Assembly (NCBI GenBank): GCA_022113835.1
Contig: JAILWY010000008.1
Coordinates: forward strand, 3,774,001 to 3,838,000
Reading direction: 5' to 3'
Length of the DNA: 64,000 bases
Source of the DNA: Atopsyche davidsoni
Lineage: Eukaryota; Arthropoda; Insecta; Trichoptera; Hydrobiosidae
The position numbers and the translations under genes are program-made. Below, piece by piece: positions 1,196-25,079 of this stretch (position 1 is its first letter; each line of letters opens with the position of its first letter). The notes under the pieces were generated by a model. The model was not told the origin of the DNA. It saw only the letters and a list, made by a program, of their open reading frames with translations, and made no database searches.

Positions 1196-3873
1196 TCAAG
1201 TATGTTGATGTATGTGTCTTGATAGAGACCGCTTGTGTCTACTTGTCCACGAGCATTGATCACAAGTAAATGCCTTCTCATCAGAATGTATAAGTTTGTG
1301 TTGTTTAAAATTTTTCTTCTCATTACAAGAATATGAGTATTGATCACAAGGAAATGACTTCTCGTCAGTATGTTTAAGTTTGTGTTGATTTAAGTTTGTC
1401 TTCTGATAACAAGAATATGAGCATTGATCACAAGCAAATGGCTTCTCACCGGTATGTATGAGTTTGTGTCGTGTTAAATGGAACTTCTCATTAGATGAAT
1501 ATGAGCATTGATCACAAGCAAATGGCTTCTCACCGGTATGTATGAGTTTGTGACGTATTAAATGCCTCTTCTCATAAAATGAATTCGAGCATTGATCACA
1601 AGCAAATGGCTTCTCGTCGTTATGTTTAAGTTTGTGTTGTTTTAATTTAGTCTTCTGATAACAAGAATATGGGCATTGATCACAAGCAAACGGTTTCTCG
1701 CCATTATGTTTGAGTTTGTGTTGTTTTAAACTTGCCTTATGATTACATGAATATGAGCATTGATCACAAGAAAATGGCCTCTCTTTGTTATGTATAAGTT
1801 TGTGTTGTTTTAAACTTGCCTTATGATTACATGAATATGAGCATTGATCACAAGCAAATGGCTTCTCGTCAGTATGTTTAAGTTTGTGTCGTTTTAAAGT
1901 TACCTTCTGATTACATGAATATGAGCATTGATCACAAGCAAATGGCTTCTCGTCAGTATGTTTAAGTTTGTGTCGTTTCAAAGTTACCTTCTGATAACAT
2001 GAATATGAGCATTGATCACAAGCAAATGGCTTCTCGTCAGTATGTTTAAGTTTGTGTCGTTTTAAAGTTACCTTCTGATTACATGAATATGAGCATTGAT
2101 CACAAGCAAATGGCTTCTCACCGGTATGTATGAGTTTGTGTCGTTTTAAATGGTACATCTGAGAAAATGAATACGAGCATTGATCACAAGCAAATGGCTT
2201 CTTGCCGGTATGTATGAGTTTGTGTCGTTTTAAATGGTACATCTGAGAAAATGAATACGAGCATTGATCACAAGCAAATGGCTTCTTGCCGGTATGTTTA
2301 AATTTGTGTTGTTTTAACCTTCTCTTACGATTACATGAAAATGAACATTGATCACAAGCAAATGGCTTCTCGTCGGTATGTATAAGTTTGTGCTGTTTTA
2401 AATGGTCCTTCCGATTATATGAATGTGAACATTGATCGCAAGCAAAAGGCTTCTCGCCGGTCTGTATAACTTTGTGCTTTACCAAGAAAATTTTCTGGCT
2501 ATAGGAGTATGAACATTTACTATCGGTTAAGAGCTCCTTGCCAGTATGAATTTGGAGAGCTTTATTCTGCAAATCTAAACCATGTGATTGCAGTTGCTCC
2601 TGAAACAAACAAAAAAATATTGTTAAATTTTGTTTTCACGGCATAAGTTACTTACAATAGTTACTGTATAAACTATGCTTATTTGTAACATACGCGCAGG
2701 ACTCCCAGGCAAGTTGGATTCTTGTAAATCGAAAAGCGTTTTTACTAATGATACTTTTAACACATGAACATAACATAACATTAAATAATTTGAAACGTGC
2801 TGACAACATCGTGACACTTATATTACTAATATAATCTCTGCTTAGTAAAACTAGTATAAATTGCATTGAGAAATTTATGAATTCCTGAGATTATTTCATC
2901 ATCGTCTTTTTAAATATTTACTGAAAAATGATTTATTATTACATGCTTAAAAACATAATTAAATATATAATAATACATGTAATTTGCTCAGCCCTCTTAA
3001 AGCTAAAGGAAGGGAATAAAATATTTACGAAATAAAGAATGACACGACACGGTAGAGGTGGTATGGCAGTACATAAAAAAATGTTGGAATTTCTCAGATG
3101 ATAAACTGAGAACACCCAAGAAATCCCAAATTTCTTGATTTCTAGATCTCCAAATTTACATACCATGGGACACAAGTACCAGAGTAAACGTGCCAAAACT
3201 CAATCTGTGCAGGTGGCTGTTTAATGCCATTATTTTAATACTAGTGGGTCACGAGTGTTGTTGAAGACCTCGAATGCCCAGGGTCGGCCTCAGCCAGTGC
3301 GGTGAGCTACAGAGACACACATATTACCTGCTCTCGCCCGACAGCTGCTCGGGAGATCGCCTTTTCACGCTCCAGCAGTGCTCTTTCAACATCGAATTCT
3401 TCAATTTTGATGTCGTCTGGCCCAAGAACCGGGGAAGCGACTCTTTCGTGTTCCAGCAAAGACCTCTCGACGTCGAATTCATCTGCATTGACCTGGCCAT
3501 ACGGCGGGGCGCCGGGGAAGGATGCCTCGCTAATGACAGACTCTCCGCCGTCTTCAAGATCAGGGATTTCTTGCTTTACATTAAGGCAACTCTCAAAGAT
3601 ATCATTCAGTAATATGTAGCACTGCGACATTCTGTTGGATAAAGAGGCAACTCTTTCGTGTTCCGGCAAAGATCTCTCGACGTCGAGCTCTTCTACTTGG
3701 ACCTCGCCGGGGAAGGACGCCTCGGCCGGCGCGTCCTCGCGCTTCACGGAAAATATCTCGCTAATGACAGACTCGCTGCCATCTTCAAGATCAACATCCA
3801 GTTTTACAGGAGCGTCCGCTTTAAGATAATTCTTAGAGATATCATGCAGTAATACGTAGCACTGCGCATACAT
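1196..3873 (-). CDS. Poly-C2H2 zinc-finger protein, array copy 1 (two-exon model)
   Basis: Exon 1 is 3873-3328 (ATG at 3873, 182 codons, ending CAG|gtaata). Exon 2 is 2599-1196, after the acceptor tttgtttcag. Both joins are phase 0, giving 649 aa. Exon 1 encodes an acidic segment of about 80 residues that is duplicated (each begins QCYxLLxDI) plus a partial third; it is not a ZAD or KRAB domain that I recognise. Exon 2 encodes C2H2 fingers of the form CDQCSYSCxxKxxLKxHKLxH joined by TGEKPFA or TDEKPFA linkers. I count 14 intact fingers. One more has its second Cys changed to Tyr (CDQYSYSC), and there is one vestigial N-terminal finger. The structural aromatic is often Cys (SYSC). It is probably a nuclear DNA-binding regulator. 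Extra small exons in the intron are possible. Confidence 0.82.
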
Positions 3874-4598
3874 CCTGTTGAGTAAAGCCGACGGCTACGA
3901 TCTTCACTTCACGACGACGCGCGCGGATGGTGACAGCAATGGCGCTGAGAACCATAGACAATGTGAATAAATACTCTATTGTTTTTTGTGATTTTATAAA
4001 ATATTTTGTAATTTTTCCTTTGTACTTAAATAAATCGGATCTTTATAACGCGGGAAAGTATTTTATAACTCCTGCACCGAGCGGCCACAGGTGTTAGTAA
4101 GAATTGTCACGGTTTCAAAAGCGGCACATAAACAATGTCATTCAACAACACATTTTTTTTTTAAATCTCAATAACCAAATGCAAAGACTGGTTTCACCAA
4201 TCTTTCACGGTTGGCATATCGGTTTCTATTAAAAATTAACATGCGGAAAAATCACTCAAGTATTTGATTGAAAATATTTAAACGAAAATCCACTATCTAA
4301 AATATTTATTTCTGAAATATATAATCTGAAAAACAACCTAATAGTCGATTAAAATAGATTATATAAAGATATAATATTTAAAAAAAAAATTACTTCATGG
4401 AGGAGGTAACACATAATAAATAAGGATATTGGTATCAAAGGCAGAGTATTTTTAGAGCAATAAATTTGAAGTTATTACTTTACTCCTCGTCCACAGATTA
4501 GACACAAATATAATTTATTGTATATTTTACTCAAATATTTTACGATTTAATATTTGCATCAGACATCAGCTGACTTATATGTTGCTTTAAAGAAATTC

Positions 4599-5276
4599 GG
4601 TACTTGTCTTTTATCCGACCACCAAAGAAAATTGTCCTATTGTTTTGCTTTTTTTGTTGGCAACAGTGTCTATTGTTTTGCTTCTTTTGTTGGCAACAGC
4701 GAGTAAATACATTTTATAAGCAATGAAATATGAGACATGCATTATCCTGGTGGCCAGAATTTTCCAATGCTATTCATGATGGTGTCGAAAGGATCCATGT
4801 GTCTCATTTTCACACGATTTCTCAACCTAACCTAACCTAACCCAACTCACGTTCACAGAATTTGATGCTAGTCAGCTCCTTGCTCCAACAGTAGATGAAT
4901 AGTATGACTTGTCTGTAAGTTAACTTCGATCCTTGCATCCATCATCTCTCTGCAACCACTACGGCTGGACCGCCAGCGATCGTGTTGTTCACTCAACGAC
5001 AGTACCATGGCATGACTATTGGTACATATGCGTGGATTGTGTAAAATACCACGCTGTTGTAGAAAAAGAACGCTACTAGCCTTGTCGTGTACGATTGCTG
5101 ATAACTGAAGAAAGTTAATTTTTAGTTTGACAGTTATACTTTGAATTAAATAAATAAACAGTACGTATTTACTCGCTGTTGCCAACAAAAGAAGCAAAGC
5201 AATAGACACTGTTGCCAACAAAAAAAGCAAAACAATAGGACAATTTTCTTTGGTGGTCGGATAAAAGACAAGTACC
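4599..5276. mobile_element. 678-bp TIR element with 8-bp TSD (unit 1 only)
   Basis: The element begins GGTACTTGTCTTTTATCCGA and ends with its reverse complement, and the inverted arms run on for roughly 100 bp with small differences. It is flanked by direct repeats AGAAATTC (4591-4598 and 5277-5284). Units 2 and 3 have the uninterrupted site. An 8-bp duplication suits hAT-like or P-like elements; the superfamily is not assigned. The interior holds a short CCTAA tract (about 4823-4840) and no convincing transposase. Confidence 0.9.
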
Positions 5277-5298
5277 AGAAATTCTATTGATTATTTTA

Positions 5299-5329
5299 CT
5301 TTCTTCGTAATATGCATTATTACGAAGAA
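5299..5329. other. Short perfect hairpin before GH18 pseudo-exon
   Basis: TTCTTCGTAATA and TATTACGAAGAA form a 12-bp inverted repeat around TGCAT. The same palindrome is present in unit 2 (near 14515, one mismatch) and in unit 3 (near 23780). Confidence 0.7.
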
Positions 5330-5399
5330 ATATACTTTGAGGAACCCAAACAATATAAAAATACTCAATAACCCTTTGCTTATAACCTTTCGTTTTTAG

Positions 5400-7700
5400 C
5401 TCTTTAGCAAACCCAATTTGAGAAAGACATTCGCACTAAATGCTGCAGCTTTTCTGCAAAAATGTGGATTCGATGGCTTATACATCGACTGGGAGTATCC
5501 GGATCAAAGAGGAGGCTCACCTGCTGATGTTAACAACTATGTTGAACTCCTCAAGACGGAAAGCCTTCAACAAAAGCGGATACCTTATTACTGCAGCAGT
5601 AGCGTCAGGGGAGAATTCAGTCGCCCAATCCTACTACATACCTTCCTTGAGCCAGTGAGGGTTTTTTTGAGACTTTTACATTATTTTCATTACACATATA
5701 AATTATTTATCCATGTTCCAAGAGTAACAATTATCCACGTTTCTTGGCACATTCAAAGCTTTTGCCAACATTTTAGCCATAATGTTTAAACTCGTTTTGG
5801 AAGACAATTTGCTTTTCATTAAAGGTAGCTTGATTGACGGAGAGAAACTTAATGCACAGTAAAAATTTATCTAGTTGTAAAAATTTAGCTAATTAATCTA
5901 GTTTTCGTATTCACTTTGCACAGAGTGCACATTTCCAGAGATGAGTGCCGCGTATGCTTCCCGCTACGAGGCAGTGTTCCTTTGTTCGCATCCTAAAGGA
6001 CCAAAAATGTCACGCGTACAGGCTGCAAATTATATGAATAAGTCAAAGGCGTTTGTGACCAAGTGGGAGAAGCAATATTTAGAAACAAAATACGTCGATG
6101 ACCTACCATAACGAGGTAAAACAAAAAAGACGTCGTCCCCCGAGGATAAGCGGATAACAAACCTATTTTTGAAGAAACCACCTCTATCTTTGCGATCTGC
6201 ACAAGAAAAACTGAAGCAAAAAGGACTAAATATATCTCTAGCTGCAATAAGAAGATATGCTCCTTTCAGAAAAGCACGCTAAAAAAAGAATGTCCTGGGC
6301 ACAAGAAAACAAAGACCGCGACAGGGACAAGATAATCTTTTCTGATGAAGCTTCGTTTTGGGCAACTAGTATCTCACTTTGTGCTTGGTCAAGTGCCGAT
6401 AACAGACTGGTCGATAGAACTGTTAAACATCCGGTAGAGGTGCATGTTTGGGGATGCTTCTCAAAACGTGGTTTTGGCAATTTGAACTTGTTTACCGAAA
6501 CTTTGAATGCTGCAAGGATGAACCAAATATACCAGAAAGCATTATTACTATCTGCCCAAAGACTGTTTCCAAGCCCAAGTGATTCATGGATATTACAAGA
6601 AGATAATGACCCCAAACACCGAAGTCGCCTATGCAGCGCGTGGAAACAAGATAAAGGCATCGAGGTCTTGGACTGGCCCTCACAGTCTCTTGACGCAAAC
6701 CCAATTGAAAACCTTTAGGTTTTGATAAAGCTTAAACTTCGAGGAAAAAAAACGCTAACTGCTGCCGAGCTAACTCGCAATTTAAAGGTCATATGGAGGT
6801 CATTATCCCGTGAATATGCTGAAAAATTAGTTGAAAGTATGCCTCAAACATGCCTGGCTATTATGAACAACGGAGGAGACTGGACACCTTATTGATAATA
6901 AAGCATCAAAGTTTGTATGATTAACTACGTGTTTCATGATTTTCCAATGCTAAACTTAATTTTTTTTATAACTTATGCCGGTTACGTTCTTTTGTTACGT
7001 ACTATACATAGCTAGAGACTGTAGGCAGGTAACAAAAAATAATGTTGAACTAAAGCTTCACTCTATCTTCCCAGGGCTGCACCGCCCCACGCTGTCCAAG
7101 CACAGGAGCTGGAACTCATGGACAATTCACAAAGGAAGCCGGCATGCTTGGATACAATGAGGTACGCCTAATTCTCAACCCATCTAATTACTATGTAGAT
7201 CTCGTGTTGAAGATGTAAAGTATTTATGGCTGACCCACTCGATATCCTTGCAGATCTGCCTGTTGGAGAATAATGCAATATTGAAATGGAATGATGAAGC
7301 CTAGGTTCCCAACTTGATATCTGGAAATCAATGGGTGTCTTACGATAATGATAAATCTGTTAAAGCAAAGGTAAACAACTCTTAAAATATTTTTTTTATG
7401 CAATATTTCACTATATTTGGAGTTTTAAATTTTGTCAAAAATTTTCATTTAAAACAAGATTATGATGAAAAATTGTAACTGTTTGATTTATTTAATTCAT
7501 TTTTAATATCAATTAATAACATTATGAGCACGTGAGATATTAACAATTAATTAATTGTTTTTTAGATTGATAACATAAAGAAATACAACCTAGGGGGTGC
7601 GATGGTCTGGAATATGGACACTGATGTCTTCCGGGGAAAATGTGGTAGAGGACCGTTTCCTCTGCTTTCAGCTCTTAGCAAAGGCATCAATAGCAAATAA
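5400..7700 (+). pseudogene. GH18 chitinase-like pseudogene, unit 1
   Basis: Recognisable exons match the intact gene at 30199-32054. They are 5400-5654 (catalytic-motif exon), about 7074-7161, 7254-7370 and 7566-7700. The motif reads FDGLYIDWEYP, so the first Asp of the DxDxE core is Tyr while the Glu is kept. The first exon has a frameshift after VELLKT; the sense frame resumes at NKSGYLITAAVASGE. The exon at 7254 has an in-frame TAG (EA*VPNL). The 5' exons are not visible, exon d is deleted, and a Tc1-like element lies between. This is a long-dead gene copy; the frameshift is shared with units 2 and 3 and so predates the triplication. Confidence 0.85.
5941..6895 (+). pseudogene. Tc1-like transposase, degenerate
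   Basis: The frame starts MSAAYASRYEAVF and continues with helix-turn-helix-like text (MSRVQAANYMNKSKAFVTKW). It has a TAA after VDDLP, a frameshift near 6255, then the DDE region: IFSDEASFWA, VWGCFSKRGFG, LQEDNDPKHRS and DANPIENL, ending before TPY and a stop. The D...D...E pattern (SDEASF, EDNDPKH, NPIEN) fits Tc1-like DD34E transposases. At least two stops and one frameshift make it inactive. It sits inside the GH18 pseudogene. Confidence 0.88.
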
Positions 7701-8454
7701 TGTCAGGTAATTATTTTTTGAATTTCAATCAGTAAGTTAATATTTTAAAATAAATAATATCTTTATAAACAGTGAAAAAATTATAACAATTTTTTATTTA
7801 CAAACTTTGGCTTTGAAAAGTCGTCATTTTATTTTACCTTAAAAAAGAACGGTAATTTTATAATAAAAAATATATAAGTAAAATTCATAGCTTTTTAATA
7901 TTCTGTAAAAAAAAACAACTTTTAATAAAGAAAAATAAGTCGACAGTCAAAAAAAATATGATGACACGTTTAAATTAAATACACCCATTTTTGTCAGTAC
8001 GGATCTCGCTCGGAAATAGAAATCGTTTCATTTATTTAATTATAACTTTATTTTATTTACAGAATATTATAAAAATAAAATGTATATTCACCTATTTTTT
8101 TAAAATTTAATTTCCGTCCTTTGACAAGGCCAAATAATGTCTTGAAGATGTTGAAAAATTTGATAAAATTATGATTTTTCAAAACCAAAGTTTGTTAATA
8201 AAATTAATTGATTTAATTTTTAAACTTATCTTTTACCGTAGGTTTATGTGTAATCTTTTATTTCCAATTTAAAAAAGGACATCTTAATGCTTAAATCAAT
8301 CGGTAATAATAATCTCCAATCAATCGGGAAAACACATATTTATCATATTAAAAGTAAAGTTATTAGAAAAAAAAAAAATGCCCTTAGAATAAGGAATGCA
8401 TTTAACTTTTGTGATTTATTTTTTTTCTATTGGTGCTGTATATTTTTCGTATTT
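7701..8454. other. AT-rich gene-free stretch, unit 1
   Basis: Very AT-rich DNA with no coding signal. It is collinear with 17214-17975 in unit 2, where small indels distinguish the copies. Confidence 0.5.
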
Positions 8455-8589
8455 CGCAGATCTTCCCAGCTTTTCGAGCACTGCATGGGTAAAATTGATC
8501 AGTTCTTGTCGATAGCGCTGCCCATTGACAGTGTCGCCTGGTTTCAAAAGCTCCTAGTACACGATTTCTTTCTGGTCCCACCAAACGCA
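8455..8589 (-). pseudogene. mariner transposase fragment
   Basis: Reading the minus strand from 8589 gives VWWDQKEIVY, a stop, then ELLKPGDTVNGQRYRQEL. This matches the mariner block that carries the second catalytic Asp (WWDQ) followed by YYELL.PGETVN...YRQQL. One nonsense codon is visible and nothing longer is preserved. Unit 2 has unrelated DNA here, so the piece is specific to unit 1. Confidence 0.75.
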
Positions 8590-8984: not shown

Positions 8985-9096
8985 TTGGTACTACTTTCGG
9001 GGGCAGAAATATACCTTGAAAAAATAAATGGTGCCCGCTGCCCGACTGGCGGGCGCTAATTGTGCTCTTGGGTACCAAAAGGTTGGGGACCCCTGG
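8985..9096. mobile_element. hAT-like 3' terminus at the unit 1/2 junction
   Basis: The sequence ends GGTACCAAAAGGTTGGGGA then CCCCTG. Its reverse complement starts CAGGGGTCCCCAACC, the classic terminal inverted repeat of Charlie-type hAT elements. Just inside is a GC-rich subterminal hairpin (GCCCG..CTGGCGGGC). The same terminus occurs at about 18340-18441, and the window itself starts right after it, so each unit boundary coincides with it. Confidence 0.7.
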
Positions 9097-9400
9097 CCTA
9101 ATCAATGTGAGTAAGCCAGTACCAGGTAAAAAAAGAGGATGACCGAGTGCACTTCGGAATATCCCACCAGTTAATCAAACAGTTCGACGTGGAGAAAAAT
9201 GTCCTGCAAAAGACGCTCAATATGATAATGTCGATCACGTGCCAAAATTTGACGACAAGAAAGAAGCCACTCGGTGTAAATATCCCCAATGTAAGGGACG
9301 TACGCATGTGTACTGTCACAAATGCAAAATACACTTGTGTTTTACTAGGAGTAGTAACTGCTTTTTCAATTTCCACTCGAAATCGAGACATGTGTAGAAC
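9092..9400 (+). pseudogene. piggyBac-like transposase C-terminal relic, unit 2
   Basis: Same Cys/His zinc-ribbon as in unit 1. This copy keeps the bases lost in unit 1 and reads VSKPVPGKKRG, TGA, PSALRNIPPVNQTVRRGEK into the RCKYPQC..NCFFNFH block. The TGA sits where piggyBac proteins usually have Arg, so it looks like a CGA-to-TGA change. Confidence 0.72.
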
Positions 9401-10012
9401 TTTTTTCCTGATTATTAACAGTTTTAGTAATAATAATTAAAGTTTTACTTATTTTAATTAGAGTTTTTGTTATATATTTTAGAAATCTTTCAATTTACAA
9501 CCGTGTTTTATTAGGATTCTCTAAATTTATAAGTAATTTTCATATATGCATGTATATAAGTATGAACGTGATTTTACTCACTCTGGTCCTATTGTACATT
9601 ACAATGTTCATGCTGTATTTTCCATAAAAAAAAATTTGTTATACCTTTTCCATATTTTAGGAGATATTGAAAAAAAAAATTTTTTCAACAAAAAATAAAT
9701 AGTCAGGTCTGAGGCGGTTAAATAATCTATATTACAACATACATACATATCGTATTTTATAAAACATACAATTCTCATATGCTCCCAGAGTGACGCAGAA
9801 GATCTCATCAATGCAGAAGTATTCTATTTCTGTTTAGCTAAAAGTACAAACCTCATACCTTGCTTCTAAAGATCAGCATGAAAAAACAACACTAAACGGA
9901 GAGAAGAGAAAATGTTGATTTCACATGGGCCCTATTCATCATGTAAAGAATAACAGCCCACACAAAGGCCAAAATCTCTCATAGGCAGAGCTTTGTTGGA
10001 ATATTTTCACCG

Positions 10013-12975
10013 TTATAAATGTTTATGTATGTGTCTTGATAGAGACCGCTTGTGTCTACTTGTCCACGAGCATTGATCACAAGTAAATGCCTTCTCATCA
10101 GTATGTATAAGTTTGTGTTGTTTTAAACTAGCCTTCTGATTACATAAATATGAGCATTGATCACAAGCAAATGGCTTCTCGTCAGTATGTTTAAGTTTGT
10201 GTTGATTTAAGTTTGCCTTCCGATAACAAGAATATGAGCATTGATCACAAGCAAATGGCTTCTCACCGGTATGTATGAGTTTGTGTCGTTTTAAATGGTA
10301 CATCTGAGAAAATGAATACGAGCATTGATCACAAGCAAATGGCTTCTCACCAGTATGTATGAGTTTGTGTTGTTTTAAACTAGCCTTCTGATTACATGAA
10401 TATGAACATTGATCACAAGAAAATGGCCTCTCTTTGTTATGTATAAGTTTGTGTTTATTTAAGCGTGCCTTCCGATTACAAGAATATGAGCATTGATCAC
10501 AAGCAAATGGCTTCTCACCTGTATGTATGAGTTTGTGTCGTTTTAAATGGTACATCTGAGAAAATGAATACGAGCATTGATCACAAGCAAATGGCTTCTC
10601 GTCGGTATGTATAAGTTTGTGCTGTTTTAAATGGTCCTTCCGATTATATGAATGTGAACATTGATCGCAAGCAAATGGCTTCTCGTCAGTATGTTTAAGT
10701 TTGTGTTGATTTAAGTTTGCCTTCCGATTACAAGAATATGAGCATTGATCACAAGCAAATGGCTTTTCACCAGTATGTATGAGTTTGTGTTGTTTTAAAG
10801 TTACCTTCTGATTACATGAATATGAGCATTGATCACAAGCAAATGGCTTCTCACCAGTATGTATCAGTTTGTGTTGTTTTAAATCCAGCTTCCGATAGCA
10901 AGAATATGAGCATTGATCACAAGCAAATGGCTTCTCGCCGTTATGTTTGAGTTTGTGTTGTTTTAAACTTGCCTTCTGATAACAAGAATATGAGCATTGA
11001 TCACAAGCAAATGGCTTCTCGGCGTTATGTTTGAGTTTGTGTTGTTTTAACTTTGCCTTCAGATTACAAGAATATGAGCATTGATCACAAGCAAATGGCT
11101 TCTCGTCGTTATGTTTGAGTTTGTGTTGTTTTAAACTAGCCTTCTGATTACATGAATATGAACATTGATCACAAGAAAATGGCCTCTCTTTGTTATGTAT
11201 AAGTTTGTGTTTATTTAAGTGTGTCTCCCGATAACAAGAATATGAGCATTGATCACAAGCAAATGGCTTCTCGTCGGTATGTATAAGTTTGTGCTGTTTT
11301 AAATGGTCCTTCCGATTATATGAATGTGAACATTGATCGCAAGCAAAAGGCTTCTCGCCGGTCCGTATAACTTTGTGCTTTACCAAGAAAATTTTCTGGC
11401 TATAGGAGTATGAACATTTACCATCGGTAAAGAGCTCCTTGCCAGTATGAATTTGGAGAGCTTTATTCTGCAAATCTAAACCATGTGATTGCAGTTGCTC
11501 CTGAAACAAACAAAAAAATATTGTTAAATTTTGTTTTCACGGCATAAGTTACTTACAATAGTTACTGTATAAACTATGCTTATTTGGAAACATACGCGCA
11601 GGACTCCGAGGCAAGTTGGATTCTTGTAAATCGAAAAGCGTTTTTACTAATGATACTTTTAACACATGAACATAACATAACATTAAATAATTTGAAACGT
11701 GCTGACAACATCATAACACTTATATTACTAATATAATCTCTGCTTAGTAAAACTAGTATAAATTGCATTGAAATTTATGAATTCCTGAGATTATTTCATC
11801 ATCGTCTTTTTAAATATTTACTGAAAAATGATTTATTATTACATGCTTAAAAATATAATTAAATGAATAATAATGCATGTAATTTGCCCAGCCCTCTTAA
11901 AGCTTAAGGAAGGGAATAAAATATTTACGAAATAAAGAACGACACGACACAGTAGAGCAGAGGTGTCAAACTTAATTTTGCAGAGGGCCATATATTAAAT
12001 TTAGAATGTGTAGGCGGGCCAGATTCAAATAAAATAAGTCTAAAAGCTCTGAAAAACATGATTCTTCTTTCTGTGACACATTGGGATCACGGGCCGTATT
12101 GATACGGCTCGAGGGCCGAAAGCGGCCCGCGGGCCGTATCTTTGACATGACTGCAGTAGAGGTAATGGCAGTACATAAAAAAATGTTGGAATTTCTCAGA
12201 TGATAAACTGAGAACACCCAAGAAATCCCAAATTTCTTGATTTCTAGATCTCCAAATTTACATACCATGGGACACAAGTACCAGAGTAAACGTGCCAAAA
12301 CTCAATCTGTGCAGGTGGCTGTTTAATGCCATTATTTTAATACTAGTGGGTCGCGAGTGTTGTTGAAGACCTCGAATGCCCAGGGTCGGCCTCAGCCTGT
12401 GCGGTGAGCTACAGAGACACGCATATTACCTGCTCTCGCCCGACAGCTGCTCGGGAGATCGCCTTTTCACGCTCCAGCAGTGCTCTTTCAACATCGAATT
12501 CTTCAATTTTGATGTCGTCTGGCCCAAGAACCGGGGAAGCGACTCTTTCCTGTTCCAGCAAAGACCTCTCGACGTCGAATTCATCTGCATTGACCTCGCC
12601 ATACGGCGGGGCGCCGGGGAAGGATGCCTCGCTAATGACAGACTCTCCGCCGTCTTCAAGATCAGGGATTTCTTGCTTTACATTAAGGCAACTCTCAAAG
12701 ATAGCATTCAGTAATACGTAGCACTGCGACATTCTGTTGGGTAAAGAGGCAACTCTTTCGTGTTCCGGCAAAGATCTCTCGACGTCGAGCTCCTCTACTT
12801 GGACCTCGCCGGGGAAGGACGCCTCGGCCGGCGCGTCCTCGCGCTTCACGGAAAATATCTCGCTAATGACAGACTCTCCGCCATCTTCAAGATCAACATC
12901 CAGTTTTACAGGAGCGTCCGCTTTAAGATAATTCTTAGAGATATCATGCAGTAATACGTAGCACTGCGCATACAT
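10013..12975 (-). CDS. Poly-C2H2 zinc-finger protein, array copy 2
   Basis: Exon 1 is 12975-12430 (ATG at 12975, 182 codons, CAG|gtaat). Exon 2 is 11500-10013. The phase-0 join gives 677 aa. It has the acidic duplicated N-terminal segment, then one vestigial finger (KCSYSYSQKIFLVKHK) and 16 intact C2H2 fingers. The fingers differ in order and identity from copies 1 and 3, mainly at helix positions -1, 2, 3 and 6. A deletion fuses the last codons to a downstream sequence, so the protein ends HKHL with a TAA supplied by the junction, where copies 1 and 3 end HQHT. The 1.27-kb deletion-free intron is lengthened by the MITE at 11958-12153. Both exons are open, so it is probably functional. Confidence 0.82.
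11958..12153. mobile_element. hAT-type MITE, 196 bp, in the zinc-finger 2 intron
   Basis: Left end CAGAGGTGTCAAACTT; right end, reverse-complemented, CAGTCATGTCAAAGATACGG. Exact 8-bp direct repeats CAGTAGAG flank it (11950-11957 and 12154-12161). Units 1 and 3 have the unoccupied site, so the insertion postdates the duplication. Confidence 0.92.
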
Positions 12976-13166
12976 CCTGTTGAGTAAAGCCGACGGCTAC
13001 GATCTTCACTTCACGACGACGCGCGCGGATGGTGACAGAGCAATGGCGCTGAGAACCATAGACAAAGTGAATAAATACTCTATTATTTTTTGTGATTTTA
13101 TAAAATATTTTGTAATTTTTCATTTGTACTTAATAAATCGGATCTTTATAACGCGGGAAAGTTTTT

Positions 13167-13952
13167 GGTACTTGTTTTTTATCCGACCACCAAAGAAACT
13201 TGTCTATCGTTTTGCTTCTTTTGTTGGCAACAGCGAGTAAACACGTATTGTGAATTACGTATTTGAATTAAATAAATATATTGATTTCAAAGTATAACCG
13301 TCAAAGATAACCGTCAAACAAAAAATGAATTTACTTCAGTTATCAACAATCGTACACGACAAGGCTAGTAGCGTTCTTTTTCTACAACAGCGTGGTATTT
13401 CGTGTGAAAATGCGACACATACATCCTTTCGACACCATCATGGATGGCATTGTAACATTCTGCCCACCAGGATAATGCATGTCTCATATTTCATTGTTTA
13501 TAAAATGTGACTTTATTGAATACTTAAAACTATATTAATATATGATACAAAATTGAAAAAAAACTTTCGCCGTTGATGTTAAGTTGCTTATGATAATGGA
13601 TGTAGATCAAAAGGCTGGCGAAATGTTTGCGTATTCGTTTATTAAGATGGACAAAAGAATATTACGTGGTTACTAGTCGAGTGTCTGCGTCTCTCTGTGG
13701 CGTGGGTGGCCTTATCGCTAGGGTTTGTAGGGGTTGTCGTAAAATAGAAAGTCTCTACCTGAGGTAGAGGCGGAGCTAACCAAGACAAATAATGTAGCGG
13801 TGTATTTACACTGACCGCTACAAAACTTTCATTTCTTTGACGGTTATACTTTAAATTAAATAAATAAACAATACGTGTTGACTCGCTGTTGCCAACAATA
13901 GAAGCAAAACAATAGACAAAGTACTTTGGTGGTCGGATAAAAAACAAGTACC
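13167..13952. mobile_element. TIR element, same family as 4599-5276, unit 2 only
   Basis: Ends GGTACTTGTTTTTTATCCGA and reverse complement; TSD AAGTTTTT (13159-13166 and 13953-13960). It sits at a different site from the unit 1 copy and its interior is in the opposite orientation. It carries a nested repeat at 13569-13822. Unit 3 is empty at this site. Confidence 0.9.
13569..13822. mobile_element. ~255-bp interspersed repeat nested in the TIR element
   Basis: Direct repeats AAACTTTC flank it (13561-13568 and 13823-13830). A second, similar copy of equal length lies at 37566-37820. In reverse orientation it starts TGTAGCGGTC and contains AATAAA, which recalls a solo LTR or a short non-autonomous element. 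No terminal inverted repeat is seen. The class is unassigned. Confidence 0.75.
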
Positions 13953-15186
13953 AAGTTTTTTATAACTCCCGCACCGAGCGGCCACAGGTGTTAGTAAGAA
14001 TTGTCACGGTTTCAAAAGCAGCGCATAAACAATGTCATTCAACAACACATTTTTTTTTTAAATCTCAACCAAATGCAAAGACTGGTTTCACCAACCTTTC
14101 ACGGTTGGCAAATCGGTTTCTTTTAATAATTAACATGCGGAAAAATCACTCAAGTATTGATTGAAAATATTTAAACGAAAATTCACTATCTAAAATATTT
14201 ATTTCTGAAATATATAATCTGAAAAACAACCTAATAGTCGATTAAAATAGAGTATATTATTAAAGATATAATATTTTAAAAAAAAATTACTTCATGGAGG
14301 AGGTAACACATAATAAATAAGGATATTGGCATCAATGGCAGAGTATTTTTAGAGCAATAGTTTGGAAGTTATTACTTTACTCCTCGTCCACAGATTAGAC
14401 ACAAATATAATTTATTGTATATTTTACTAAAATATTTTACGATTTAATATTTGCATCAGACATCAGCTGACTTATATGTTGATATAAAAAAAATTCTATT
14501 GATTATTTTACTTTTTTCGTAATATGCATTATTACGAAGAAATATACTTTGAGGAACCCAAACAATTAAAAAATAATCACTAACCCTTTGCTTATAACCT
14601 TTCGTTTTTAGCTATTTAGCAAACCCAATTTGAGAAAGACATTCGCACTAAATGTTGCAGCTTTTCTGCAAAAATATGGATTCGATGGCTTATACATCGA
14701 CTGGGAGTATCCGGCTCAAAGAGGAGGCTCACCTGCTGATGTTAACAACTATGTTGAACTCCTCAAGACGGAGAGTCTTCAGCAAAAGCGGATACCTTAT
14801 TACTGCAGCAGTAGCGTCAGGGGAGAATTCAGTCGCCCAATCCTACTACATACCTTCCTTGAGCCAGTGAGGGTTTTTTTGAGACTTTTACATTATTTTC
14901 TTTACACATATAAATTATTTATCCATGTTCCAAGAGTAACAATTATCCACGTTTCTTGGCACATTCAAAGCTTTTGCCAACATTTTAGCCATAATGTTTA
15001 AACTTGTTTTGGAAGACAATTTGCTTTTCATTAAAGGTAGCTTGATTTTATAAACATCATGACTTACGACTTTCACGGCGTATGGGAGGGGAAAAGAGGA
15101 CATCATTTTCCACTTCTTGTTTCTAAGGTTGAACAAACTAACGGAGAGAAACTTAATGCACCGTAAAAATTTATCTAGGACCAAAA

Positions 15187-15700
15187 ATGTCCTGGGCACA
15201 AGAAAACAAAGACCGCGACAGGGACAAGATAATCTTTTCTGATTAAGCTTCGTTTAGGGCAACTAGTATCTCACTTTGTGCTTGGTCAAGTGCCGATAAC
15301 AGACTGGTCGATAGAACTGTTAAACATCCGGTAGAGGTGCATGTTTGGGGATGCTTCTCAAAACGTGGTTTTGGCAATTTGAACTTGTTTACCGAAACTT
15401 TGAATGCTGCAAGGATGAACCAAATATACCAGAAAGCATTATTACTATCTGCCCAAAGACTGTTTCCAAACCCAAGTGATTCATGGATATTACAAGAAGA
15501 TAATGACCCCAAACACCGAAGTCGCCTATGCAGCGCGTGGAAACAAGATAAAGGCATCGAGGTCTTGGACTGGCCCTCACAGTCTCCTGACGCAAACCCA
15601 ATTGAAAACGTTTAGGTTTTGATAAAGCTTAAACTTCGAGGAAAAAAAACGCTAACTGCTGCCGAGCTTACTCGCAGTTTAAAGGTCATATGGAGGTCAT
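15187..15700 (+). pseudogene. Tc1-like transposase, internally deleted copy
   Basis: Collinear with the unit 1 Tc1 relic from MSWAQENKDRDRDKIIFSD onward, but the N-terminal half is gone. The junction shares 'atgtc' with both sides, which suggests a microhomology deletion. A TAA replaces the Glu codon in the SDEASF motif. The 3' end is also cut. Confidence 0.85.
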
Positions 15701-16036
15701 TACTGTACATAGCTAGAGACTGTAGGTAGGTAACAAAAAATAATTTTGAACTGAAGCCAGCAACATCTTTTATGTGTGAATTTATCAATCGATCCCAGTT
15801 CGTAGAACCTTAACGTTAGTTTTAAATATCAGGCAATAATTTCTAAATAGTAAATAATTTTATTTCTGCTGCCTGAACAATAATGCCTGTCAAAACCAAC
15901 GAACATAACTCTTATTGTTGCTACAAATACATAGAAACTCGCTTTCTGGATGCCAGCTCTCAAATGTGGATAAGAAAAGGAGTCCCGGCCAAAAAACTGG
16001 TGATGGGAGTGGGCTTTTACGGACGCAGCTTCACTC

Positions 16037-16567
16037 GAAGTCCGACTCAACGTGCGCCGTGGAGGGCACCACGGAGCGGACACGCTAGGCGCCCGGATTT
16101 CGCCCATCTGCACGTCTTCTGCGAGCATTCGGCCAACATGGAACAGCGTCTCAGGATCCCGCCGCCGCGCCAACGGCAGGAACCGAAGACCAGGAGGAGG
16201 AAACACAGTCGCGACAGGAATCCCACCAGCGACACCCATCGCTGGGCCCTGACGCTCAACGACACGAGACCGCCAAGACCAGGGAAAGGTGCGCCGCCCA
16301 ACAAATGGCACCATGGAGCGGACAGCACAAGAAGACGAGACCAGGAGGAACGCCGAGGAGGCGAAACCCCCCCCCCCCCAGCAGCAGAAAAGAAGAATGT
16401 CCTTGGAGGACATGGGAGCAGAATTTATTGTTCATGTATTTTATATGTATTTCTCTTTTCACATGTGCCTTCAAGACGGCCTCAATTAAAGGATACGCTC
16501 CCGCAACCCGGAAGAGTGCCAGAAGGCTTGCCTGGGTGTGGGGTGCGAATGCCACCACATAAAAAAA
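16037..16567 (+). mobile_element. Poly(A) retroposon inserted in GH18 pseudo-exon
   Basis: The 531-bp insert ends in an A-run and is flanked by 10-bp duplications AGCTTCACTC (16027-16036 and 16568-16577). Removing it and one duplication joins the two halves of a GH18 exon in frame. It is GC-rich with a C9 run near 16371-16379. The poly(A) and TSD indicate LINE-mediated insertion; a SINE or a 5'-truncated LINE are both possible. Unit 1 lacks it. Confidence 0.88.
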
Positions 16568-17975
16568 AGCTTCACTCTATCTTTCCAGGGCTGCACCAAC
16601 CCACGCTGTCCAAGCACAGGAGCTGGAACTCATGGACAATTCACAAAGGAAGCCGGCATGCTCGGATACAATGAGGTATACCTAATTCTCAACCCATCTA
16701 ATTACTATGTTGATCTCGTGTTGAAGATGTAAAGTATTTATGCTTTCTGATGGCTGACCCACTCGATATCCTTGCAGATCTGCCTGTTGGAGAATAATGC
16801 AATATTGAAATGGGATGATGAAGCCTAGGTTCCCAACTTGATATCTGGAAACCAATGGGTGTCTTACGATAATGATAAATCTGTTAAAGCAAAGGTAAAC
16901 AACTCTTAAAATATTTTTTTTATGCAATATTTCACTATATTTGGAGTTTTAAAATTTTCATTTAAAACAAGATTATGATGAATAATTGTAACTGCTTGAT
17001 TTATTTAATTCATTTTTAATATCAATTAATAACATTATGAGCACGTGAGATATTAACAATTAATTAATTGTTTTTTAGATTGATAACATAAAGAAATACA
17101 ACCTAGGGGGTGCGATGGTCTGGAGTATGGACACTGATGACTACCGGGGAAAATGTGGTAGAGGACCGTTTCCTCTGCTTTCAGCTCTTAGCAAAGGCAT
17201 CAATAGCAAATAATGTCAGGTAATTATTTTTTGAATTTCAATCAGTAAGTTAATATTTTTAAATAAACAATATCTTTATTAACAGTGAAAAAATTATAAC
17301 AATTTTTTTTTTACAAACTTTGGCTTTGAAAAGTCGTCATTTTATTTTACCTTAAAAAAGAACGGTAATTTAATAATAAAAAATATATAAGTAAAATTCA
17401 TAGCTTTTTTAATATTCTGTAAAAAAAACAACTTTTAACAAAGAAAAATAAATCGACAGTTAAAAAAAATATCATGACACGTTTAAATTAAATACACCCA
17501 TTTTTGTCAGTACGGATCTCGCTCGGAAATCGAAATCGTTTCATTATTTCATTTATTTAATTATAACTTTATTTTATTTACTGAATATTATAAAAATAAA
17601 ATTTATATTTACCTATTTTTTTATTATTTAATTTCCGTCCTTTAACAAGGTCAAATAATGTCTTGAAGATGTTGAAAAATTTGATAAAATTATGATTTTT
17701 CAAAACCAAAGTTTGTTAAAAAAATTAATTGATTTAATTTTTAAACTTATCTTTTACCGTAGGTTTATGTGTAATCTTTTATTTCCAATTTAAAAAAGAC
17801 ATCTTAATGCTTAAATCAATCGGTCATAATAATCTCCAATCAATCGGGAAAACACATATTTATCATATTAAAAGTAAAGTTATTAGAAAAAAAAAAAAAT
17901 ACCCTTAGAATATGGAATGCATTCAACTTTTGTGATTTATTTTTTTTCTATTGGTGCTGTACATTTTTCGTATTC

Positions 17976-18339
17976 TAACCTGTTTGAAATTTTTAGCTAT
18001 AAATGTACATTTTAAAATTTCTATTAAAAATAATTAGTCGTTGCATATTTGCCCCAATTACCAGATTTTCATACTATTATTTACTACTACTTATTATTTA
18101 TTTAACATAAAAATATAAACAGTAATTTTTATATTTTATAATTATATTTTTTCCATTTCCAACTAGGCGTGCCACTAGGTTTCCGGCTTTTTTTTTTATC
18201 AATGAAAAGTGTATAATTTTAAAAGAAATACAAAAAATAGTTTATTCAAAGTATCGTCACATTTTTGCTATCTCTCTGGCAGTACACGAATACCGTGACG
18301 ATAAAACGACGCGTCGGACCGAAACCGTTCAAGCATCCA
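17976..18339. other. Gene-free end of unit 2
   Basis: AT-rich DNA with no coding signal. It differs from the matching place in unit 1, which holds the mariner piece. Confidence 0.45.
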
Positions 18340-18441
18340 ATTCGGGAGCAGAAATATACCTTGAAAAAATAAATGGCGCTTGCCGCCCGACTGGCGGGCG
18401 CCATTTGTGCTCTTGGGTACCAAAAGGTTGGGGACCCCTGG
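18340..18441. mobile_element. hAT-like 3' terminus at the unit 2/3 junction
   Basis: Same terminal sequence as at 8985-9096, including the GC hairpin (GGCGC..GCGCC) and the CCCCTG end. Confidence 0.7.
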
Positions 18442-18650
18442 CCTAATCAATGTGAGTAAGCCAGTACCAGGTAAAAAAAGAGGATGACCGAGTGCACTTC
18501 GGAATATCCCACCAGTTAATCTGAGCCACTCGGTGTAAATATCCCCAATGTAAGGGACGTAAGCATGTGTACTTTCACAAATGCAAAATACACTTGTGTT
18601 TTACTAGGAGTAGTAACTGCTTTTTCAATTTCCACTCGAAATCGAGACAT
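18437..18650 (+). pseudogene. piggyBac-like C-terminal relic, unit 3, internally deleted
   Basis: The piggyBac relic resumes at the CKYPQCKG block after a deletion of the Arg-rich linker part. The HLCFTR...NCFFNFH end is kept. Confidence 0.65.
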
Positions 18651-19189
18651 GTGTAGAACTTTTTTCATGATTATTAACAGTTTTAGTAATAATAATTAAA
18701 GTTTTACTTATTTTAATTAGAGTTTTTGTTATATATTTTAGTTATCTTTCAATTTACAACCGTGTTTTATTTAATTCCTCTAAATTTATAAGTAATTTTC
18801 ATATATACATGTATATAAGTATGAAGGTGATTTTACTCACTCTGGTCCTATTGTACATTACAATGTTCATGCTGTATTTTCCATAAAAAAAAATTTGTTA
18901 TACCTTTTCCATATTTTAGGAGATATTGAAAAAAAATTTTTTCAACAAAAAATAAATAGTCGAGGCGGTTAAATAATCTATCCACGAAACATACATATCG
19001 TATTTTATAAAACATACAATTCTCTTATGCTCCCAGAGTGACGCAGAAGATCTCATCAATGCAGAAGTATTCTATTTCTGTTTAGCTAAAAGTACAAACC
19101 TCATACCTTGCTTCTAAAGATCAGCATGAAAAATCAACACTAAACAGAGAGAAGAGAAAATGTTGATTTCACATTGGCCCTATTCATCA

Positions 19190-19867
19190 TCCACTATAAT
19201 AATAGCCATTGTGTGTGTGTGTGTGTATGTTTCATTTTTTTGTTCTCTATAGAATATCTTAAAAGATACAACGCTGATTTTTTGCACGTACGTTCAGTAA
19301 GTTTTTCCGCAGCTATGTGCCGAATTTCAAGTCGATAAGATAATATTTTCATTCATAATCTAATTAAATAAAACTTTCAAATATGCTTTATGTACGAATT
19401 ATATGATTCTGTTGTTCACAGCGAGAATTTCAAATTTAGAATTTTTACAAAAAAGCAAAATATGATGCTTCTAAGAAATTTCCAGTTTATGTCAGCTTAA
19501 CACAAGTACCAATTTTATTTTTTAGTTGCGTTAGAAATTATTAATCTCATCATTAATAACTTAAAATGCCTCCTAAAAAAATAACACCGTCTAAGCACAG
19601 CAAACGTAATTAAAAAAGAATAGCACAATTGAACGTGATAAAGACTGCATCTAATATAGAACAGTGCAGTGAAAGTGATTCGTTGTTTGTGACACGAAAT
19701 GAGATATTTCCTAGAATGGCCGTGCTTTCGAAATTAATATACGGTTATTCAAAATATATGTGTACAAAATGAAATCAAATATTCATCTAATTGTCAGCCA
19801 AACATATGTTCAAACACTTTTGCATCGTTCATCGAATACATCATTTTATGACGGGCTACATTTCTAG
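19190..19867 (+). mobile_element. Non-autonomous Helitron, unit 3 only
   Basis: The element starts TCCACTATAATAATAG and ends CTACATTTCTAG. It lies precisely between host A (19189) and T (19868). Unit 1 reads CATCATGTAAAG without interruption, so no target duplication was made, as expected for Helitrons. Inside is a (GT)n tract (about 19201-19218) and, near 19566, a decayed start MPPKKITPSKHSKRN followed by a stop, like the N-terminus of insect Helitron proteins. Confidence 0.9.
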
Positions 19868-20247
19868 TGTAAAGAATAACAGCCCACACAAAGGCCAAAA
19901 TCTCTCATAGGCAGAGCTTTGTAGGAATATTTTCACCGTTATAAACCTTCGAAGTGAGGGTTGCAAGTGACAGAATCCACTACTCTTGACATCAAAACAC
20001 GAACCTTACAAAAAGCCTCCCTCAGGTCTGAGATCTTCAAAGCAGCTTACCTTCCAGTACCTAAGCGGATGTGCTTGAGGAAGAACAAAGTATCAGCAAA
20101 TGGACGCAGTACACAAAACCAAATGTATATAATTAATAAGTGTTTTATTAAATTTTAAGAAATTACAATTTTAATGAGAATCAATGTGGTATGAAATTGA
20201 CAAACCAAAATATGGAAAAATCAAACAATTTTTATTTGAAAATACAT

Positions 20248-23047
20248 TCAAGTATGTTGATGTATGTGTCTTGATAGAGACCGCTTGTGTCTACTTGTCC
20301 ACGAACATTGATCACAAGTAAATGCCTTCTCATCAGTATGTATAAGTTTGTGTTGTTTAAAATTTTTCTTCTCATTACAAGAATATGAGCATTGATCACA
20401 AGCAAATGGCTTCTCGTCGTTATGTATAAGTTTGTGTTGTTTTAATTTAGTCTTCTGATAACAAGAATATGGGCATTGATCACAAGCAAACGGTTTCTCG
20501 CCATTATGTTTGAGTTTGTGTTGTTTTAAACTTGCCTTATGATTACATGAATATGAGCATTGATCACAAGAAAATGGCCTCTCTTTGTTATGTATAAGTT
20601 TGTGTTGTTTTAAACTTGCCTTCAGATTACATGAATATGAGCATTGATCACAAGCAAATGGCTTCTCGTCAGTGTGTTTAAGTTTGTGTTGATTAAAGTT
20701 TGTCTTCCGATAACAAGAATATGAGCATTGATCACAAGCAAATGGCTTCTCACCGGTATGTATGAGTTTGTGTTGTTTTAAATTAACCTTCAGATTACAT
20801 GAATATGAGCATTGATCACAAGCAAATGGCTTCTCACCGGTATGTATGAGTTTGTGACGTATTAAATGCCTCTTCTCATAAAATGAATTCGAGCATTGAT
20901 CACAAGCAAATGGCTTCTCGTCGTTATGTTTAAGTTTGTGTTGTTTTAATTTAGTCTTCTGATAACAAGAATATGGGCATTGATCACAAGCAAACGGTTT
21001 CTCGCCATTATGTTTGAGTTTGTGTTGTTTTAAACTTGCCTTATGATTACATGAATATGAGCATTGATCACAAGAAAATGGCCTCTCTTTGTTATGAATA
21101 AGTTTGTGTTGTTTTAAACTTGTCTTCTCATTACAAGAATATGAGCATTGATCACAAGCAAATGGCTTCTCGTCAGTATGTTTAAGTTTATGTTGTTTTA
21201 AAGAGTCCTTCTGATTACATGAATATGAGCATTGATCACAAGCAAATGGCTTCTCACCGGTATGTATGAGTTTGTGTCGTGTTAAATGGAACTTCAGATT
21301 AGATGAATATGAGCATTGATCACAAGCAAATGGCTTCTCGTCAGTATGTTTAAGTTTGTGTCGTTTTAAATGATACTTCTGATTAAATAAATGCGAGCAT
21401 TCATCACAAGCAAATCGCTTCTCACCTGTATGTATGAGTTTGTGTCGTTTTAAATGGTACATCTGAGAAAATGAATACGAGCATCGATCACAAGCAAATG
21501 GCTTCTCACCGGTATGTATGAGTTTGTGACGTATTAAATGCCTCTTCTGATTAAACGAATTCGAGCATTGATCACAAGCAAATGGCTTCTTGCCGGTATG
21601 TATAAGTTTGTGCTGTTTTAAATGGTCCTTCCGATTATATGAATGTGAACATTGATCGCAAGCAAAAGGCTTCTCACCGGTCTGTATAACTTTGTGCTTT
21701 ACCAAGAGCTCCTTGCCAGTATTAATTTGGAGAGCTTTATTCTGCAAATCTAAACCTTGTGATTGCAGTTGCTCCTGAAACAAACAAAAAATATTGTTAA
21801 ATTTTGTTTTCACGGCATAAGTTACTTACAATAGTTACTGTATAAACTATGCTTATTTGTAACATACGCGCAAGACTCCCAGGCAAGTTGGATTCTTGTA
21901 AATCGAAAAGCGTTTTTACTAATGATACTTTTAACACATGAACATAACATAACATTAAATAATTTGAAACGTGCTGACAACATCGTGACACTTATATTAC
22001 TAATATAATCTCTGCTTAGTAAAACTAGTATAAATTGCATTGAGAAATTTATGAATTCCTGAGATTATTTCATCATCGTCTTTTTAATTATTTACTGAAA
22101 AATGATTTATTATTACATGCTTAAAAACATAATTAAATGAATAATAATACATGTAATTTGCCCAGCCCTCTTAAAGCTAAAGGAAGGGAATAAAATATTT
22201 ACGAAATAAAGAATGACACGACACAGTAGAGGTGGTATGGCAGTACATAAAAAAATGTTGGAATTTCTCAGATGATAAACTGAGAACACCCAAGAAATCC
22301 CAAATTTCTTGATTTCTAGATCTCCAAATTTACATACCATGGGACACAAGTACCAGAGTAAACGTGCCAAAACTCAATCTGTGCAGGTGGCTGTTTAATG
22401 CCATTATTTTAATACTAGTGGGTCGCGAGTGTTGTTGAAGACCTCGAATGCTTAGGGTCGGCCGCAGCCGGTGCTGTGAGGTACAGAGACACGCATATTA
22501 CCTGCTCTCGCCCGACACCTGCTCGGGAGAGCGCCTTTTCACGCTCCAGCAGTGCTCTTTCAACATCGAATTCTTCAATTTTGATGTCGTCTGGCCCAAG
22601 AACCGGGGAAGCGACTCTTTCCTGTTCCAGCAAAGACCCCTCGACGTCGAATTCATCTGCATTGACCTCGCCATACGGCGGGGCGCCGAGGAAGGATGCC
22701 TCGCTAATGACAGACTCTCCGCCGTCTTCAAGATCAGGGATTTCTTGCTTTACATTAAGGCAACTCTCAAAGATATCATTCAGTAATATGTAGCACTGCG
22801 ACATTCTGTTGGGTAAAGAGGCAACTCTTTCGTGTTCAGGCAAAGATCTCTCGACGTCGAGCTCCTCTACTTGGACCTCGCCGGGGAAGGACGCCTCGGC
22901 CGGCGCGTCCTCGCGCTTCACGGAAAATATCTCGCTAATGACAGACTCGCCGCCATCATCAAGATCAAGATCCAGTTTTACAGGAGCGTCCGCTTTAAGA
23001 TAATTCTTAGAGATATCATGCAGTAATACGTAGCACTGCGCATACAT
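20248..23047 (-). CDS. Poly-C2H2 zinc-finger protein, array copy 3
   Basis: Exon 1 is 23047-22502 (182 codons). Exon 2 is 21774-20248. The phase-0 join gives 690 aa. Seventeen intact C2H2 fingers follow the same acidic N-terminal segment. The vestigial first finger of copies 1 and 2 has been deleted cleanly (KELL joins directly to VKHK), and the finger that is broken in copy 1 is intact here (CDQCSYSCNEKKNFKQH). A block of three or four fingers occurs twice inside the array (RPFSC..NHKASLKQH, then CDQCPYSCYQKTKLKQH), a sign of recent internal duplication. One finger has CDEC and one CDRC. No stop or frameshift is visible. Confidence 0.83.
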
Positions 23048-24990: not shown

Positions 24991-25079
24991 ATTAGAAACG
25001 GATTCATAATCAGAAATATATGGATCTTCGGAAGTGAATCGGAAACCAGGATCAGAAACAGTGATCCTCTGAAGCCAAA

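Follow-up and report, generated by a model that had tools for sequence, protein, structure and literature searches.

Selection that rewrites DNA recognition has its textbook case, mostly in vertebrates, in the evolution of the KRAB-ZNF and PRDM9 zinc-finger genes. A 64-kb stretch of contig JAILWY010000008.1 of the insect Atopsyche davidsoni (positions 3,774,001 to 3,838,000; this whole stretch is the window referred to below) raises the question of whether three tandem poly-zinc-finger (poly-ZF) genes, copies A, B and C, are evolving in the same manner. A first-pass annotation had described three intact genes with 47 fingers in different orders, which differed mainly at the DNA-contact positions of the helix (-1, 2, 3 and 6), and had likened them to KRAB-ZNFs and PRDM9. 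The trio is known here from the DNA letters of the window alone, which make it moderately probable that these are young tandem poly-C2H2 genes, encoding an acidic N-terminus and 14-17 fingers, that exchange their arrays and diversify in DNA recognition.

The gene models and a scan of all six frames with the intact-finger pattern C-x2-C-x12-H-x3-H bore out the three intact genes, with 14 (A), 16 (B) and 17 (C) intact C2H2 fingers (47 in total). The fingers are joined by TGEKP-type linkers (Pfam zf-H2C2_2, 5.4e-91 for copy A exon 2) and present 25 distinct helix quadruplets over the three arrays. Each gene lies on the minus strand in two exons of identical architecture, with GT-AG splice sites identical in all three, and encodes 649 (A), 677 (B) or 690 aa (C) with no stop or frameshift in approximately 2 kb of coding sequence. 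Copy A's stop codon and copy C's start codon delimit the span from 1196 to 23047. Exon 1 encodes 182 aa in every copy and ends at the donor CAG/GTAATATG (slash, splice site), and exon 2, which follows the acceptor TTTTGTTTGTTTCAG, carries the finger array. The lengths of exon 2 (1404, 1488 and 1527 nt in A, B and C) differ entirely in frame, by whole 84-bp fingers and by 45 bp where C begins. Finger A14 is broken by replacement of its second zinc-binding Cys with Tyr (CDQY), and a degenerate first finger is present in A and B. A tblastn search with exon 1 (E<=1) detected no exon 1 copies in the window besides these three. The three proteins very likely would bind DNA; among solved structures, those closest to them in sequence are fingers of ZNF568, CTCF, the designed protein Aart and PRDM9, mostly determined as DNA complexes.

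The finger frame CDQCSYSCxxKxxLKxHKLxH (15 fixed positions) was exact in 17 of the 47 fingers and had three or fewer mismatches in 43, in keeping with the earlier description of it as almost fixed. The outliers were the C-terminal finger of each copy, with six mismatches, and one finger of C, with four. Entropy was calculated over 44 fingers, a set from which A14 and the three C-terminal fingers, which have no full 28-residue unit, were excluded. Mean entropy at -1, 2, 3 and 6 was 2.08 bits, a value reached by a fraction of 0.00024 of the 20,475 four-position sets. The most variable positions were +2 (2.8 bits), +3 (2.4 bits) and -1 (2.0 bits). Position +6 (Q/R/K) had an entropy of 1.1 bits, below that of linker position 22 (1.5), -3 (1.4), -2 (1.3) and +5 (1.2).

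Codon-level comparisons of the same fingers showed an excess of amino acid change at the contacts. Pairwise among the 44 full-length fingers, the ratio of nonsynonymous to synonymous differences (pN/pS) was 1.11 at the four contact positions and 0.41 elsewhere. To avoid counting all pairs, changes were also assigned to the 35 edges of a minimum spanning tree of the 36 distinct fingers. On the 20 edges of 5 nt or fewer, the contacts carried 23 nonsynonymous and 4 synonymous changes, against 21 and 16 in the remaining codons; nonsynonymous changes were clustered at contacts (23 of 44, 13.9% expected, p = 1.9e-9) and synonymous changes were not (4 of 20, p = 0.4). Enrichment was weaker on the 11 edges of 3 nt or fewer (6 of 16 nonsynonymous changes at contacts, p = 0.016), where the nonsynonymous to synonymous contrast between contacts and the rest was not significant (Fisher p = 0.26). 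With the 35 edges taken together, nonsynonymous changes were enriched at contacts (65 of 128), and synonymous changes showed a marginal enrichment there (14 of 56, p = 0.053).

A purpose-written codon model of the GY94 type, with two fixed partitions and a shared synonymous rate pooled over the finger, was run on two trees (from all codons or from non-contact codons only) under two codon-frequency models. The ratio of nonsynonymous to synonymous substitution rates (dN/dS, omega) was 2.46-4.56 for the four contact codons as a set and 0.30-0.40 for the remainder of the finger, and a likelihood-ratio test of contact omega against 1 gave p = 1.7e-4 to 5.6e-11. When the partition was split, omega was 3.35-6.08 for -1, 2 and 3 and 0.41-1.02 for +6, and only -1, +2 and +3 among the 28 codons were significantly above 1 individually, on both trees. 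Contact dN/dS against the rest of the finger was the measure that the first-pass annotation had named in advance; the contact set was higher by pairwise, spanning-tree and codon-model tests, and thus the outcome it had set against its claim, contacts no higher than elsewhere, was not what was found. That dN/dS is higher at contacts than in the frame is solid; a value above 1 is likely but not settled. Equal involvement of the four contact positions was rejected, with +6 behaving like the frame in the spanning tree and the codon models. The proposed variation at four positions therefore stands for -1, 2 and 3 and fails for +6, and since +6 alone is not elevated, the resemblance to the vertebrate systems is narrower than had been stated.

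The arrays also differ in content and order. The intron rate predicts 1.6-2.3 differences in the 84 nt of each corresponding finger (2.2 for A vs. B). When A14 and the C-terminal fingers were included, B offered a partner within 4 nt for 4 of 15 A fingers, and C for 9 of 15. Fingers whose nearest counterpart was 6 nt or more away numbered 10 of 15 (A in B), 9 of 16 (B in A), 2 of 15 (A in C), 2 of 17 (C in A), 8 of 16 (B in C) and 13 of 17 (C in B), so that the content of A resembles that of C, with B standing apart. Collinear chains of fingers no more than 4 nt different extended over at most four (A-B), seven (A-C) and three fingers (B-C). Identical 84-mers at non-corresponding places (A1 = B1 = B9; A4 = B13; A5 = A7; A9 = C8 = C14) substantiated the claim of different finger orders, and C carries the block HASQ-QTKQ in two places. 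The nearly identical pairs A8/C13 and A12/C5, 2 nt apart in each case, differ at a contact. Unequal exchange and conversion, within an array and between copies, would be the simplest account of these patterns, and the B fingers without a close partner imply that the ancestral array was larger or that donors lay beyond the window.

The trio is a young tandem cluster that arose by recent duplication. Self-comparison of the window resolved three units in direct orientation, and the proportion of substituted sites between copies was 1.9-2.8% for the intron, 1.5-2.2% for exon 1, 1.6-2.9% for the 3' flank, 1.6-2.5% for a GH18 chitinase fragment carried by each unit and 3.2-3.8% for the 5' flank. Exon 1 had no indels in any of the three pairs vs. 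1.4-9.9 per kb in the intron and gene flanks. Copy B contains extra sequence with no counterpart in A and C, namely 794 bp in the 5' flank, part of which matches 37562-37820, and 202 bp in the intron. The transposase region of unit A (6286-6805) has a counterpart in unit B (15183-15702) with a 98.5% match, and the reading frames of the zinc-finger exons are free of insertions of these sorts.

Exon 1 is acidic (41-42 D/E vs. 16-17 K/R) and apparently disordered; structure prediction without an alignment was of low confidence (mean pLDDT 47.3, pTM 0.19). Each of the three copies carries the motifs VKRE, VKQE and IKIE at the same positions, and these are candidate matches to the SUMO consensus psi-K-x-E. 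Neither exon 1 of the three copies nor the seven upstream minus-strand open reading frames (ORFs) gave a Pfam match at E<=1, and no relative of exon 1 was found at E<=0.01 among 2941 candidates, which were proteins of 0.55-1.75 times 649 aa only. By eye, exon 1 seems to have been duplicated internally, in tandem, over about 80 aa, giving two blocks of the form QCY-LL-DI ... ESVISE ... DVERSL.

The fingers were also compared with those of related proteins. Cysteine occupies helix position -3, usually a core Phe, in 29 of the 47 window fingers. It was found in 48 of 121 fingers of ten lepidopteran proteins, nearly all of them in five of the proteins, and in 19 of 1393 fingers of the 110 other proteins among the matches listed, with 15 of the 19 in two proteins. 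This Cys is common in Cydia, Bicyclus and Maniola arrays but not in those of Plutella or Eumeta. The closest finger matches among those listed were from Cydia and Bicyclus; at least 10 of the 120 were lepidopteran by name, most of those listed being vertebrate, and the lepidopteran poly-ZF matches listed had at most 51% identity over the aligned part. Judged from such matches alone, a lepidopteran host would be possible. Contact-biased entropy was present in all five lepidopteran sets made from the ten proteins (Cydia, Bicyclus, Maniola, Eumeta and Plutella; rank fraction 0.00005-0.00112), which are protein data and allow a comparison of entropy, not of dN/dS. The contact-biased pattern is therefore not peculiar to the window. 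Unlike in the window, +6 ranked high in variability in the Cydia, Plutella, Bicyclus and Eumeta sets.

In the mechanism we propose, the 84-bp repeats would be exchanged and multiplied by unequal crossing over and gene conversion among copies, selection would hold the finger frame and favor new contact residues, and each copy would thereby recognize its own long DNA sequence. Less certainly, the proteins may be DNA-targeted repressors acting through the N-terminal SUMO-type (psi-K-x-E) motifs, with repression aimed at changing targets such as transposons or satellites. Diversification of DNA recognition is likely, and repression of transposons or satellites would be a plausible leading reason for it. 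A more ambitious proposal is that the trio represents an insect functional counterpart of KRAB-ZNFs, that is, a KRAB-free and ZAD-free repressor family with its own SUMO-motif N-terminus, arrays rebuilt by tandem exchange and contacts under positive selection against transposons or satellites; we consider this proposal doubtful. If true, it would set the trio apart from Drosophila and Anopheles, in which tests for selection of this kind were negative (PMC2604467). If contact-codon selection holds, the trio, and perhaps Lepidoptera generally, would offer an independent and experimentally accessible non-dipteran insect system for asking what drives it.

Several results weigh against this main reading of the trio as a diversifying cluster. 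With their own synonymous rate, the contacts had a ratio of 1.36 (p = 0.39) or 1.77 (p = 0.096), and -1, 2 and 3 had a ratio of 1.73 (p = 0.15) or 2.22 (p = 0.033), depending on the tree. The choice between positive selection and relaxed constraint is unsettled because the own-rate contact ratios were not significant, and recombination among fingers violates the single-tree model. A and C share much of their array content. In exon 1, dN was 0.016-0.024 and dS 0.012-0.016 between copies, on few changes, so that purifying selection on exon 1 is not shown, and the GH18 fragment is likewise free of indels over 514 bp, which makes frame integrity weak evidence. The first-pass annotation had suggested comparing predicted motifs with the transposons in the array; a comparison with the window sequence came out empty: with a crude recognition code, the best identity in the window was not above the best of 20 Markov shuffles in six of six motif/strand tests (one equal). 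It is possible, although somewhat unlikely in our estimation, that positive selection played no part, the frame being under purifying selection and homogenized by gene conversion and the contacts being merely tolerant, so that old differences persist. High synonymous differences at +2 (pS 0.59) and +3 (pS 0.56) would be expected if old variation were retained, and the lepidopteran sets suggest that the contact bias may be a generic feature of poly-ZF arrays. This explanation has to contend with the pooled-rate contact omega (p <= 1.7e-4 throughout), with the own-rate ratio for -1, 2 and 3 on one of the trees and with nearly identical fingers that differ at a contact. That the copies are instead decaying duplicates, recent pseudogenes with frames still intact, is improbable. 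Broken A14, the degenerate first fingers, transposon fragments inside the units and an exon 1 dN not below dS would suit decay, but all three coding regions are free of stops and frameshifts, and non-contact finger codons have a low omega, though much of that history predates the duplication.

Diversification need not involve a parasite arms race. The proteins could be regulatory or heterochromatin/insulator factors with drifting targets, as argued for Drosophila ZAD-ZNFs, an explanation with which the null motif scan agrees and which we regard as rather unlikely. Kasinathan et al. (PMC7655104) disfavor arms races as the sole driver of ZAD-ZNF innovation, and Panfilio et al. (PMC6444547) saw no correlation between ZF271-like expansion and repeat content in Hemiptera and warn that such KRAB-free clusters in bugs need not result from an arms race. 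However, selection in ZAD-ZNFs was reported mainly in the linker and not in the C2H2 domains, three genes showing it in the fingers (PMC7655104), whereas change in the trio is concentrated at contacts; in addition, Wells et al. (PMC10547256) predicted that ZNFs of the rice weevil, but not those of Drosophila, bind transposons. A PRDM9-like function, in which the arrays would position meiotic recombination, is very improbable: turnover of a coding minisatellite together with change at contact codons recalls mouse Prdm9 (PMC3890296), but exon 1 and the seven upstream ORFs have neither SET nor KRAB and there are three tandem paralogs.

Coordinates of the genes, the duplicated units and other features are given in Table 1. 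The first-pass annotation had placed the trio among dead neighbors in a transposon-rich array. This description holds in part. Each unit contains a GH18 chitinase fragment, which may be dead or may be an exon of a spliced gene, and unit A contains a Tc1/mariner-type fragment; other parts of the window have long open frames, among them one resembling 2-oxoglutarate dehydrogenase (OGDH) and one for a chemosensory receptor. Several GH18 fragments were duplicated along with the zinc-finger genes, and the one in unit B appears by eye to be broken by foreign sequence after about 16065. The OGDH-like frame is a single ORF encoding a complete 2-oxoglutarate dehydrogenase E1 with four Pfam domains and has only 60-65% identity to insect OGDH among the 120 matches listed, in which the recognizable organisms are insects and none is lepidopteran by name; it looks like an old intact intronless retrocopy or a diverged paralog. 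The 738-aa frame contains internal repeats and a weak match, under the family cut-off, to DUF1759, which we take to be of the retrotransposon gag type. The major facilitator frames presumably resemble a vesicular amine transporter.

Table 1. Positions in the window of the zinc-finger genes, duplicated units and neighboring features.
Feature	Position	Strand	Description or basis
Copy A exon 1	3328..3873	-	182 aa, ATG to donor CAG/GTAATATG, acidic N-terminal region
Copy A exon 2	1196..2599	-	acceptor TTTGTTTCAG/GAG to stop, 14 intact fingers
Copy A finger A14, broken	1286..1348	-	placed from offset within exon 2
Copy B exon 1	12430..12975	-	182 aa
Copy B exon 2	10013..11500	-	array, 16 intact fingers
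Copy C exon 1	22502..23047	-	182 aa
Copy C exon 2	20248..21774	-	array, 17 intact fingers
Duplicated unit A, as far as visible (window edge at 1)	1..8453		self-comparison
Duplicated unit B	9092..17974		self-comparison
Duplicated unit C, which at its 24-kb end falls short of A and B	18524..24273		self-comparison
GH18 chitinase fragment, unit A	5400..5786	+	Pfam PF00704 8.3e-9
GH18 chitinase fragment, unit B	14612..14998	+	Pfam PF00704 4.1e-10
GH18 chitinase fragment, unit C	23879..24265	+	Pfam PF00704 2.1e-8
Further GH18 chitinase pieces	15877-16671; 30144-31819	+	Pfam
Tc1/mariner-type transposase fragment, unit A	6251..6718	+	Pfam DDE_3 3.4e-9
738-aa frame	25065-27281	+	weak DUF1759 match
Chemosensory receptor ORF, 364 aa	33122-34216	-	insect 7tm chemosensory receptor family (Pfam)
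OGDH-like ORF, 1014 aa	40485-43529	+	four Pfam domains
Major facilitator transporter frames	46957-49602	+	Pfam MFS_1 at 47861-48184, 1e-14

Among known systems, the trio is best read as a putative insect lineage-specific poly-ZF cluster of the ZF271-like sort that evolves like KRAB-ZNFs and PRDM9 and is a member of neither. The likeness to those two families put forward in the first-pass annotation thus survives as a manner of evolution, in contact dN/dS and array turnover, and not as membership. Pfam searches of exon 1 of A, B and C and the seven upstream minus-strand ORFs led us to reject membership in the KRAB-ZNFs (no KRAB), in PRDM9 (no PR/SET or KRAB) and in the ZAD-ZNFs (no ZAD, PF07776). 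Like tetrapod KRAB-ZNF clusters, the trio combines tandem duplication and many fingers with change concentrated on DNA-contact residues (PMC2604467). Its dN/dS among paralogs is raised at the contacts as a set, though not at +6, and exceeds 1 only with the pooled synonymous rate. KRAB-ZNFs repress transposons through KAP1/TRIM28. KRAB-ZNF positive selection is strongest at -1, 3 and 6, whereas the trio, which has no KRAB, changes at -1, 2 and 3; Emerson and Thomas did not find positive selection evident in the poly-ZF expansions of D. melanogaster and A. gambiae (PMC2604467). With PRDM9 the trio shares an 84-bp coding minisatellite, change in copy number and order, seen here between paralogs only, and diversification of contact codons, but mouse codons -1, 3 and 6 change (PMC3890296), +6 is not elevated in the trio, and the trio consists of three tandem paralogs.

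Cyprinid FiNZ-ZNFs offer another parallel as a non-KRAB poly-ZF family with its own N-terminal region, in which dN/dS > 1 is enriched at base-contacting residues in two clades and which is linked to transposon repression (PMC10547256). The hosts are unrelated, however, and the N-terminus of the trio has no Pfam match of any kind, no FiNZ model having been searched by name. Lepidopteran poly-ZF proteins (Cydia, Bicyclus, Maniola, Eumeta and Plutella) likewise show contact-biased variation in homogenized arrays; exon 1 of the trio had no match at E<=0.01 in the protein search. Zinc-finger genes are abundant in lepidopteran segmental duplications, with 167 in Plutella xylostella (PMC5499213). The excerpts of this paper and of PMC11837612 list zinc-finger genes among duplicated or novel lepidopteran genes and do not mention contact residues, those of PMC5499213 being silent on array turnover as well, and a search of titles and abstracts, with partial coverage of the literature, found no report of contact-residue selection in lepidopteran poly-ZF genes.

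The closest parallel by description is with the ZF271-like (APEZ) genes of the pea aphid and Oncopeltus, which have many tandem C2H2 fingers with a penta-peptide linker, no other recognized domain, KRAB-free and lineage-specific tandem clusters, and recent duplicates with differing arrays; insects have no direct KAP-1 ortholog (Panfilio et al., PMC6444547). APEZ genes are described as having fingers as their sole domain and as varying in exon structure within a cluster (PMC6444547), whereas copies A, B and C share one structure and a 182-aa acidic N-terminal exon. This kind of poly-ZF cluster is already known, and it is the insect setting together with the contact-codon signal that makes the trio a useful member of it.

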